Below, in pieces: positions 8,235 through 30,841 of a DNA stretch of 64,000 bases. A program made the position numbers and the translations under genes. The first letter of the stretch is position 1; every line of letters starts with the position of its first letter. Below the pieces are notes generated by a model, which saw only the letters and a program-made list of their open reading frames with translations, had not been told where the DNA came from and did no database searches. Source of the stretch: Methylophaga sp. GTDB taxonomy: Bacteria > Pseudomonadota > Gammaproteobacteria > Nitrosococcales > Methylophagaceae. The stretch lies in NCBI GenBank assembly GCA_002733715.2, contig NVWQ02000053.1, positions 1 to 64,000 of the forward strand. Reading direction: 5' to 3'.

Positions 8235-8993
8235 ATGAAAATAATCATGATCACAGGTGCGACCTCGGGTTTTGGTGAAGCAACAGCCCGATTATTTGCT
8301 AAAAATGGTTGGAGATTGATTCTAACAGGGCGAAGAAAAGACCGTTTAGAGCGATTACAAAATGAGCTGGGTGGTGCAGATATCGTGCATTATTGTTGCT
8401 TTAATATTAGTGACCGCCAAGCTGTAGAAAATGCATTTCAATCTTTGCCAGAATCATTCTCCAATATTGATGTTTTACTTAATAATGCTGGCCTAGCTTT
8501 AGGCCTAGATCCTGCTGATGAGAGCAATCTCGATGATTGGGAGCAAATGGTTGACACCAATATCAAAGGTTTGATGTATTGCACACGAACCATGTTGCCA
8601 AAAATGAAACAACGTGGGCAGGGCTATATTATTAATATAGGTTCAGTTGCAGGAAATTGGCCTTATCCTGGTGGCAATGTATATTGCGCAACCAAGGCAT
8701 TTGTTCGCCAATTTTCATTAGCGATTAGAGCTGACTTATTAGGTTCAGGTATTAGAGTAACGAATATCGAACCGGGTAATGCAGAGACTGAATTCTCAAC
8801 AGTACGGTTTAATAATGATGAGCAACGGGCAGAGAATGTTTATCAAAATACGAAAGCTTTAACAGCGGATGATATTGCCGAGACAGTGTATTGGTTAGTA
8901 AACACACCCACACATGTGAATGTCACTACTATGGAAATTATGCCGACGGAACAATCGACGGGTGCATTAGCGGTATATCGCCGCGATAAATAA
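8235..8993 (+). CDS. SDR-family NAD(P)-dependent oxidoreductase (YdfG-like)
   Basis: ITGATSGFGEATARLFAKNGWRLILTGRR...NNAGLALG...YCATKAFVRQFS. Confidence 0.92.
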   Translation: MKIIMITGATSGFGEATARLFAKNGWRLILTGRRKDRLERLQNELGGADIVHYCCFNISDRQAVENAFQSLPESFSNIDVLLNNAGLALGLDPADESNLDDWEQMVDTNIKGLMYCTRTMLPKMKQRGQGYIINIGSVAGNWPYPGGNVYCATKAFVRQFSLAIRADLLGSGIRVTNIEPGNAETEFSTVRFNNDEQRAENVYQNTKALTADDIAETVYWLVNTPTHVNVTTMEIMPTEQSTGALAVYRRDK

Positions 8994-28663: not shown

Positions 28664-29302
28664 ATGGCAATAGACTTAACACAAAATAGACCTGAATTTT
28701 TACAGAGTGGATTGTCGTTAGACGAGCTTAATGTTGATCCTATCAAGCAATTCGAACTTTGGTTTAAGCAGGCTATAGAAGCAGATATTATTGAACCGAG
28801 TGCGATGAGTTTAGCAACATCAGACGGTTTGGAAGTAAGCTTGCGCACGGTGTTATTGAAGTTTTTTGATGACAAAGGTTTTGTTTTCTTTACTAATTAT
28901 GCGTCAAAAAAATCTAAACAAATTGAGTCAAACCCACAGGCTGCATTGTTATTTCCGTGGCTGGCGCTTGAGCGACAAGTAAAAATTAGTGGGCGAGTAG
29001 AAAAAATATCGACGCTGGAATCACTTAACTATTTCGCAACACGGCCGAAAGATTCTCAGCTAGGTGCTTGGGCCTCACATCAATCCAGTAGGTTATCATC
29101 AAGACAGGTCTTATTGACACAATTTGAAGCAATGAAAAATAAGTTTAAAGAAGGTGAAATACCGTTACCTGATTTTTGGGGAGGCTATCGCGTAGTGCCA
29201 CATTCGATAGAGTTCTGGCAAGGACGAGAAAACCGGCTACATGACAGATTTATATATAAAAGAGTTGAAGACGTTTGGGAAATTAGTCGTTTAGCTCCAT
29301 AA
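28664..29302 (+). CDS. pdxH: pyridoxamine 5'-phosphate oxidase
   Basis: [64 protein letters not shown]...[27 protein letters not shown]. Confidence 0.96.
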
Positions 29303-29373: not shown

Positions 29374-29456
29374 ACATAACGTTTGAGTTAAAGGGTTTTT
29401 TAAAAGAGAAGCGAGAGTGCCTCTTTTAAAAATTCGTTTTGAACGACATGTTATAC
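29374..29456 (-). other. integron attC-like recombination site
   Basis: minus strand GTATAAC-ATGTCGTTCAAAACGAATTTTTAAAAGAG...CTCTTTTAAAAAAACCCTTAACTCAAAC-GTTATGT: R''/L''/L'/R' layout plus 12-bp perfect inner stem (29397-29408 / 29421-29432). Confidence 0.83.
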
Positions 29457-30044
29457 GAAATTTGTAAATGCATAAAATGCGCGATACATACCCCACATAA
29501 AAGCGGTATAAGATAATAAACCCAAACCTATGCATACAAGGTTTATGTAAAAACCCCATTTTTGAGCTTTTAGACTTTCACTGTCATATAACCACTGGCT
29601 TAAATATGTAAAGCCAGACGTTATAGTCATTGCTAACACTCCTAAAACAAAGGGAAATAATGCATTAGAAAAAACAACTACTGATTCGGGTTTTATTTTT
29701 GTAAGATGCCCGATGAATGCTAACAATGCAACAGATGCGCCGCCATTCATTAAAAGAGATGAACGAATTGCATTTTGTCCGGAAGTTATTACTGAGCGGA
29801 ACATCTCAAGTTTGGATTCGTGATAGTTTTTATTTTGTTCTATATGAAGTTGTAAGTCAGCTTTGTATTTTTCAAGATCTGCTTCTGTTAGAGATGTTGA
29901 AGGTGAGCTACCTACATCATCTAAATAAGCAATCAGATTGTCACAGTAAATAGCTGCTGTACCATTTTTTTTAATATCCTGGATGGTTTCTTTTAATTGA
30001 GTAGCAAATTTTTGGGCACTCATTGATTTTTCCTTTTCGTATAA
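29380..30044 (-). mobile_element. solitary integron gene cassette (single attC, no integrase in the window)
   Basis: 5' boundary GTTATAC (minus, 30045-30039) is the exact reverse complement of the attC R'' box GTATAAC (29456-29450); one short ORF fills the element; stop codon overlaps R''. Confidence 0.8.
29451..30023 (-). CDS. cassette-borne hypothetical membrane protein (cytoplasmic helical N-terminus, about 3 TM helices)
   Basis: MSAQKFATQLKETIQDIKKNG...MFRSVITSGQNAIRSSLLMNGGASVALLAFIGHL...NALFPFVLGVLAMTITSGFTYLSQWLY...WGFYINLVCIGLGLLSYTAFMWGMYR; AAGGA upstream of ATG at 30023; the longer ORF start at 30077 lies outside the cassette boundary. Confidence 0.85.
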   Translation of the reverse strand: MSAQKFATQLKETIQDIKKNGTAAIYCDNLIAYLDDVGSSPSTSLTEADLEKYKADLQLHIEQNKNYHESKLEMFRSVITSGQNAIRSSLLMNGGASVALLAFIGHLTKIKPESVVVFSNALFPFVLGVLAMTITSGFTYLSQWLYDSESLKAQKWGFYINLVCIGLGLLSYTAFMWGMYRAFYAFTNFV

Positions 30045-30154
30045 CTTGTTATTAGTGGAAAGAGTGTTTCCCAGCAACTCTTAAAAATATGCGGACTATA
30101 TTGCCTAGTAATAGGATAATCAAGCGAAAACACGGCATCAACTGATTATGACGA

Positions 30155-30841
30155 TTATGTTTCTTTACTTAATTTGCCATCAATTAAGGTAAGTACTGTA
30201 TCCATCTGTGCCGCAAGGTTTACATCATGAGTAACAATCACTAATGCCGTACCCAGTGATTCATTTAACTCAAGAATTAAATCAAAAATAGCACTGGCGG
30301 TGCGGTGATCTAAATTGCCGGTGGGCTCGTCGGCTAATAAACAATCCGGTTTGGTGATTAATGCACGGGCTAATGCAGCACGTTGGCGTTCGCCGCCTGA
30401 TAGTTCACTGGGTTTGTGAATCAGTCTATGACCCAAGCCCACCTTTTTTAATAGATCTTCAGCTTGTTGTTCAGCTTGTTTGGGTTCCATGCCTCCAATA
30501 ATAAGCGGAATAGCTACATTTTCAACAGCAGAAAATTCAGGCAATAAATGATGAAATTGATAGACAAAGCCTAAGCTTTGATTTCGTAATTTGCTCAGTG
30601 CATTAACCGATAGCGAGTTAATATCTTGGCCATGAATTTCTACGTTACCGCTTGTTGGCTCATCTAGGCCGCCAAGCAAATGTAGCAGGGTGCTTTTACC
30701 TGAACCTGAACTACCGACAATGGCTAATCTATCGCCTTTGCTTACGGTTAAGTTAACATCAGTTAGCACCTTAGTATCTAATTCACCATCATGAAAACTT
30801 TTGGCCAAATGGTTACATTGCAATACGATTGGTTTAGTCAT
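30155..30841 (-). CDS. lolD: lipoprotein-releasing ABC transporter ATP-binding protein
   Basis: VGSSGSGKSTLLHLLGGLDEPTSGNVEIHG...LSGGERQRAALARALITKPDCLLADEPTGNLD; start MTKPIVLQC at 30841. Confidence 0.94.
   Translation of the reverse strand: MTKPIVLQCNHLAKSFHDGELDTKVLTDVNLTVSKGDRLAIVGSSGSGKSTLLHLLGGLDEPTSGNVEIHGQDINSLSVNALSKLRNQSLGFVYQFHHLLPEFSAVENVAIPLIIGGMEPKQAEQQAEDLLKKVGLGHRLIHKPSELSGGERQRAALARALITKPDCLLADEPTGNLDHRTASAIFDLILELNESLGTALVIVTHDVNLAAQMDTVLTLIDGKLSKET

Follow-up and report, generated by a model that had tools for sequence, protein, structure and literature searches.

We analysed a window of 64,000 nucleotides from Methylophaga sp. (assembly GCA_002733715.2, contig NVWQ02000053.1, positions 1 to 64,000), in which a single integron gene cassette lies on the minus strand between a lolD-type gene and pdxH. 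As integrated, the cassette occupies 29,380-30,044 (665 bp) and consists of an open reading frame (ORF) of 190 amino acids (29,451-30,023) followed by an attC site (29,374-29,456). At its upstream side, on the same strand, stands a 98-nt copy of attI (30,042-30,139), the site at which integrons take up cassettes, and no integrase gene accompanies it. An earlier note made from the letters of the window had described a solitary cassette, placed at a site other than attI by an integrase encoded elsewhere or since lost. The single attC and the lack of an adjacent integrase stand, and the genome does encode an intact integron integrase (IntI) elsewhere. The target site, however, is a copy of attI.

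Read on the minus strand, the attC comprises R'' (GTATAAC, 29,456-29,450), a 5-nt spacer, L'' (GTTCAA) with an extrahelical C, an inner stem that is perfect over 12 bp, L' (TTTAAC), a 6-nt spacer and R' (GTTATGT, 29,380-29,374). The cassette is bounded by G|TTATAC and G|TTATGT, and its 5' junction reads AACAAG(30,045)|TTATACG. The cassette opens with GTTATAC, whose reverse complement is exactly R'', the self-consistency expected of a true cassette once circularised. The ORF starts with an ATG at 30,023, near the 5' boundary, and its TAA stop (29,453-29,451) lies inside R''. The earlier note had read all of these elements correctly, including the self-consistency of the ends and the positions of start and stop. 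Its argument that the structure is not a random hairpin was also borne out. A relaxed attC grammar fits other parts of the 64 kb too, but none of them has a 12-bp perfect inner stem; no such stem arose in 60 Markov-1 shuffles, and the attC strand folds with z = -3.4.

The note had proposed a search with an attC covariance model. We used a model built mainly from class 1 integron cassettes on plasmids, together with four sites from relatives and with the window site excluded. The window attC was its sole match in the 64 kb (33.3 bits, E = 3.7e-7). A loose regular-expression scan of the genome returned thousands of chance matches and was discarded, and Rfam, which holds no attC family, gave chance matches only. 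The likeness to aadA-type sites given in the note was recovered as well: in a plasmid record, the attC of aadA1 shows an identical layout, GTCTAAC-AATTC-GTTCAAG...CTTAACTCAAGC-GTTAGAT. With an ORF, an R''-L''-stem-L'-R' array and G|TT on both sides, 29,380-30,044 is a genuine single integron gene cassette.

The window attC has canonical 5/6 spacing, whereas the genus's own attC flavour has 4/4 spacers. Since a second model, R2, used for genus-type attC sites only, found no match at the window attC, the cassette probably came from another lineage. A search of 35 further genomes of the family did not find the cassette gene; its constant presence between lolD and pdxH in close relatives, with no empty-site allele, is what the earlier note had named as evidence against a cassette. 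The closest homologue, 68% identical, belongs to an uncultured Pseudomonadales bacterium (L021, where L and a number denote a locus sequence), in which it stands between two attC sites within an array of about fifteen, flanked by GTTATAC...GTATAAC. A 61% identical homologue in a Gallionella metagenome-assembled genome (L022) has cassette-like ends, GTTATGC...GCATAAC. The gene thus also occurs as a cassette in other integrons, and its position in the L021 array, together with its absence from the 35 family genomes, indicates a cassette origin. More distant homologues, 35% and 32% identical, lie on a Vibrio plasmid and a Thalassospira plasmid. The Gallionella homologue (L022:4981-5640) has no surrounding array and is possibly another solitary cassette. 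No Pfam, NCBIfam or PADLOC family matched the cassette protein. An AlphaFold model made from three sequences is all helical at low confidence (predicted local distance difference test score 69, predicted template modelling score 0.48), and the protein is probably a helical membrane protein.

The earlier note did not describe the 98 bp that end at the crossover. We first met this unit as a blastn repeat of some 95 bp between lolD and the cassette, present in this genome and in congeners and always starting at the crossover, which in the window copy falls between G30045 and T30044 (AACAAG|TTA). When copies were read out, they shared a conserved unit that ends in GTTAATAACAAG|TTA, and the gene behind it differed from copy to copy. 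A covariance model of 98 positions, R1, was built from 19 training copies; the window copy is one of these rows and scores 95.4 bits (E = 1.9e-15). We refer to this genome as G000, to other genomes compared as G and a number, and to contigs as C and a number. R1 copies number ten in this genome (nine without intI) and sixteen in the congener G042, and they occur in 23 of 59 relatives, all of one family.

One R1 match lies beside this genome's own intI (C43:254-351); it was outside the training set and scores 53.7 bits. The unit adjoins intact intI in seven genomes (G000, G006, G021, G023, G024, G041 and G046), where it is adjacent to and divergent from the integrase gene, about 60-170 nt from the intI start. 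At the first-cassette junction the crossover is G|TT, and different cassettes stand behind the same site. Because the same unit lies directly beside intact intI in seven genomes, the 98-nt unit is, on sequence grounds, the attI of this bacterial family. We rejected the idea that the repeat is part of an attC, like the Vibrio cholerae repeats, since it lacks an R'' and adjoins intI.

The unit is about 97-98 bp long, with a sharp edge at each end. In an alignment of 39 dispersed copies, positions before the crossover are about 90% conserved, G, T and T reach 100% and the next A 95%, and the values then fall to 30-55%. At the left edge, AAT|AATTCCC, conservation is down to background level. Of 43 dispersed copies, 26 have as their nearest upstream neighbour a gene that runs toward them on the same strand (median distance 77 nt), and in 7 this gene is oriented the other way. 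A consensus scan (9/12) predicts a sigma70-type, Pc-like promoter, TTGATT-17-TATAGT, in the window copy (30,095-30,123, minus strand) that would read into the cassette; candidates scoring at least 8/12 were present in 15 of 42 dispersed copies. Just before the core there is a small conserved hairpin, GGGAAA-CACTC-TTTCC (30,056-30,072, minus strand), seen with covarying pairs by RNAalifold on the 19 copies and in a read-out of 55 copies. The unit has two small hairpins with compensatory changes, TTCC/GGAA and AGGGAA/TTCCC, and copies with TTCTC pair it with GAGAA. At some loci, partial tandem copies of the CTTGATTATCnnnTTACTAGG part lie about 85-105 nt upstream. The hairpins and these partial repeats are possibly accessory sites for IntI or for a regulator.

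Comparison of orthologous loci shows what happens behind such copies. The copy on C16 of this genome lies between a tRNA-Ser gene and an epmA-like gene, which is followed by efp. Up to the crossover, 7.8 kb of G000:C16 and G023:C93 align collinearly at 85-90%. Past it stand 1.4 kb and 4.0 kb of unrelated DNA, respectively, after which collinearity resumes at 85-87%. In four more locus pairs, collinearity is lost between +2 and +15 bp of the crossover. Orthologous intI-less loci thus carry the same attI copy with different cassettes behind it, and the sequences show that cassettes have turned over in the past precisely at the crossover. Upstream of the tRNA-Ser gene (L174, about 8543-8626, from G000:C16) there is a repeat of ~84 bp that occurs dozens of times in the congeners G017 and G023; it is a separate multi-copy intergenic element.

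We also asked where attC sites lie relative to these platforms. In platform-bearing loci, 25 of 26 attC matches share the strand of the platform and follow it within 5 kb, against an expected fraction of 0.17; some of these 26 sites belong to the training sets, which were gathered from both strands of all loci. G042 has arrays of up to five attC at its platforms, and because these sit on contigs of hundreds of kb, the platforms are not an artefact of contig ends. In this genome, each of the nine intI-less copies precedes a different gene or short array. Behind other copies (C25, L186:2162-5466; C1, L176; C63, L184) we observed BrnT/BrnA and ParE toxin-antitoxin modules, a Phd/YefM antitoxin and an AAA protein matching the PADLOC candidate defence family PDC-S06 (E = 2e-172). 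This set of genes resembles the usual cargo of integrons.

The genome encodes one intact IntI (C43:420-1364; TIGR02249, 445 bits), the sole intI above the curated cut-off, and its translation shows the catalytic motifs and the IntI-specific patch. A second IntI-like frame, interrupted by stops (C10:21393-21813, L011), is the end of a decayed integron integrase, and no attI copy was found near it. In the window, the 1.3 kb upstream of the attI copy holds lolD and has no similarity to intI, so that the locus has an attC and an attI copy with no integron integrase beside them.

We propose, with a probability of about 85%, that the integrase-less attI copies dispersed over the chromosome work as additional docking sites for cassettes, with IntI supplied from another locus. 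The window locus would then be a one-cassette integron platform without an integrase of its own. IntI would act in trans, most simply from C43 or a predecessor, and would recombine the folded attC of a circular cassette with the attI copy at AACAAG|TTA, just as happens at an ordinary attI. The promoter of the attI copy, if active, would transcribe the captured gene, and every copy would be a first position behind a promoter. The window copy may still be in use today. Several observations weigh against this proposal. The promoter hexamers are weakly conserved in many copies, and no convincing attC accompanies three of this genome's nine dispersed platforms (C25, C63 and C67). Several congeners carry attI copies with no intI in the assembly, so some platforms may be frozen. 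Finally, among all copies the C43 attI has diverged furthest: it is 58-72% identical to the dispersed copies and 59% to the window copy, although the core AACAAG|TTA is identical. Because of this divergence, and because the dispersed copies are closer to the intI-linked attI of other species than to the C43 attI, the dispersed copies must be old and may have been filled by another IntI allele.

Other explanations of the locus make different demands. Off-target insertion by IntI at a random secondary (attG-type) site after lolD would be in line with cassettes documented at such sites (PMC10127599 and PMC12444791), and a single attC without an adjacent intI fits the term SALIN (single attC lacking an integron integrase; PMC12690207). 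An attG requires only a short motif, however, and would leave no extended repeat, whereas here the 98 bp that adjoin the crossover opposite the cassette recur at intI-linked attI sites. An attG-type target is by definition neither attI nor attC, and the target here is an attI copy; we regard this explanation as very improbable. It is harder still to credit that the unit is an unrelated intergenic promoter repeat whose hairpin is a terminator and which takes no part in recombination. Units do follow gene ends and do carry a predicted promoter and hairpins, but the unit adjoins intI in seven genomes, has an invariant G|TT edge and a same-strand attC downstream, and marks with its edge the exact point of cassette turnover; no intrinsic terminator was found.

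Two further explanations concern how attI came to stand at so many loci. Each dispersed copy could be the relic of a whole intI-attI-cassette integron from which intI was deleted, cassettes having moved only while the locus had its own integrase. Some copies are plainly decayed integrons: a decayed intI adjoins the attI copy in G021:C10, an intI remnant does so in G042:C12, and G028 carries partial intI beside its copies. As a general account this is possible but unlikely in our view, because 44 of 53 copies with sufficient upstream sequence have no intI trace, including all eight other testable dispersed copies of this genome. In the window the deletion would have had to end exactly at the edge of attI, 15 bp from the lolD stop codon; deletions of the same exactness would be needed at other loci, 0-60 bp from the preceding gene, and the left edge of the unit is sharp. 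Alternatively, attI could travel within an excised segment of attI plus cassettes, which would form when an attC recombines with another IntI site to the left of attI and would then land elsewhere. IntI1 is able to mobilise cassettes that carry attI fragments (PMC12901181), and orthologous tRNA-Ser-epmA loci exist with the platform (G000 and G023) and without it (G013, where epmA follows the tRNA gene after 156 nt). An IntI crossover should leave G|TT at the left edge, however, and the edge reads AAT|AATTCCC, which makes this route improbable.

The scarcity of intI traces and the tight fit behind gene ends argue that most copies may have arisen by insertion of the unit alone. Tentatively, the 98-nt attI/promoter unit could be a non-autonomous mobile element whose copies, settling where genes end, have multiplied within this bacterial order and created a network of expressed single-cassette docks around one integrase. 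If so, many captured cassettes would simultaneously occupy the first position after a promoter. Neither a transposase nor a target duplication could be identified for the unit. The intI at G042:C12:423052, beside its attI copy, is cut to the first 18 codons and a late stretch of ~20 codons (amino acids 1-18 and 290-310). With fifteen further attI copies, G042 is an integron network that has lost its integrase, and with only this internally deleted intI its sixteen platforms may be frozen.

Similar arrangements were found in two other genera. In a sister genus (g15) the intI-adjacent sequence differs, and parts of it recur at about three other places per genome, ending at G|TTA. In another family of the same order (f2, with finished chromosomes G028 and G029) the region upstream of intI recurs at several loci, some with intI fragments. 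Because the repeated sequence follows each lineage's own attI, these data speak for attI function over a common intergenic repeat.

In the textbook integron there is a single attI with its Pc, and expression is confined to the first few cassettes, so that the number of captured genes usable at once is limited. The present arrangement suggests one integrase serving many loading docks instead of a single dock. Dispersed attI copies would each offer an expressed first position, and intI-less clusters could be live docks, not dead remnants. This bears on the origin of intI-less cassette clusters and on whether such clusters stay active. It also yields a search strategy, in which the intI-linked attI of a genome is used to find its further copies.

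The system shares with sedentary chromosomal integrons an IntI of family TIGR02249, a G|TT attI, attC-bearing cassettes and a predicted promoter into the first cassette, but it has ten attI copies, nine of them without intI. Integrons typically have one attI near the integrase, and clusters of attC sites lacking integron integrases (CALINs) are seen as degraded integrons (PMC9024848). Like CALINs and SALINs, the platforms have attC-bearing cassettes and no adjacent intI; the definition of those classes is silent on attI, whereas every copy here begins with a recognisable attI. IntegronFinder at threshold 1 should call the window locus a SALIN. Because this program models no attI outside class 1 (PMC9024848), such platforms would be listed as plain CALINs or SALINs.

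Cassettes at secondary sites (Recchia and Hall 1995, Segal and Elisha 1997 and Francia 1993, as cited in PMC10127599; for attG sites, Loot 2024, as cited in PMC12444791) are likewise inserted precisely away from intI, but the target here is a full attI copy that recurs at many loci. The recurrent CALINs of Xanthomonas also occupy several chromosomal cassette positions apart from intI, partly conserved between species; in contrast to our case, the accessible sections of PMC12444791 report no attI there and take the conservation of position as a sign of ancestral integron activity. Delta-attI-type cassettes (PMC12901181) also have attI sequence away from its usual place, but there the place of attC after the ORF is taken by attI2 sequence or by an attI fragment of 14-18 nt, whereas here a full attI lies upstream and the attC is normal. 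A literature search for dispersed or multiple attI returned no matching description; subscription papers were largely outside its coverage, and the novelty of a chromosomal integron with dispersed intI-less attI docks is provisional.

Two housekeeping genes flank the platform. The lolD-type ABC (ATP-binding cassette) transporter ATPase (30,155-30,841, minus strand; Pfam ABC_tran, E = 8.9e-37) is encoded in the same direction as the attI copy, and its naming rests on a neighbouring LolC/E-like ORF. On the other side pdxH (28,664-29,302, plus strand), encoding pyridoxamine 5'-phosphate oxidase (Pfam PNPOx_N, E = 7.4e-24; PNP_phzG_C, E = 2e-21), is convergent on the cassette. The earlier note had proposed looking for an empty lolD-pdxH site in sister strains. 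No clean empty allele could be read among ten congeners, where other genes occupy the region past lolD: a DUF2062-like gene in most of them, and Mog/CinA-like and antiporter-like genes in the closest two (names assigned by eye). The lolD-pdxH stretch spans 0.85 kb here, compared with about 5 kb in G013 and about 7 kb in G017 (L063 and L064). Because it differs in every close relative compared, lolD-pdxH is a rearrangement-prone spot, the cassette aside.
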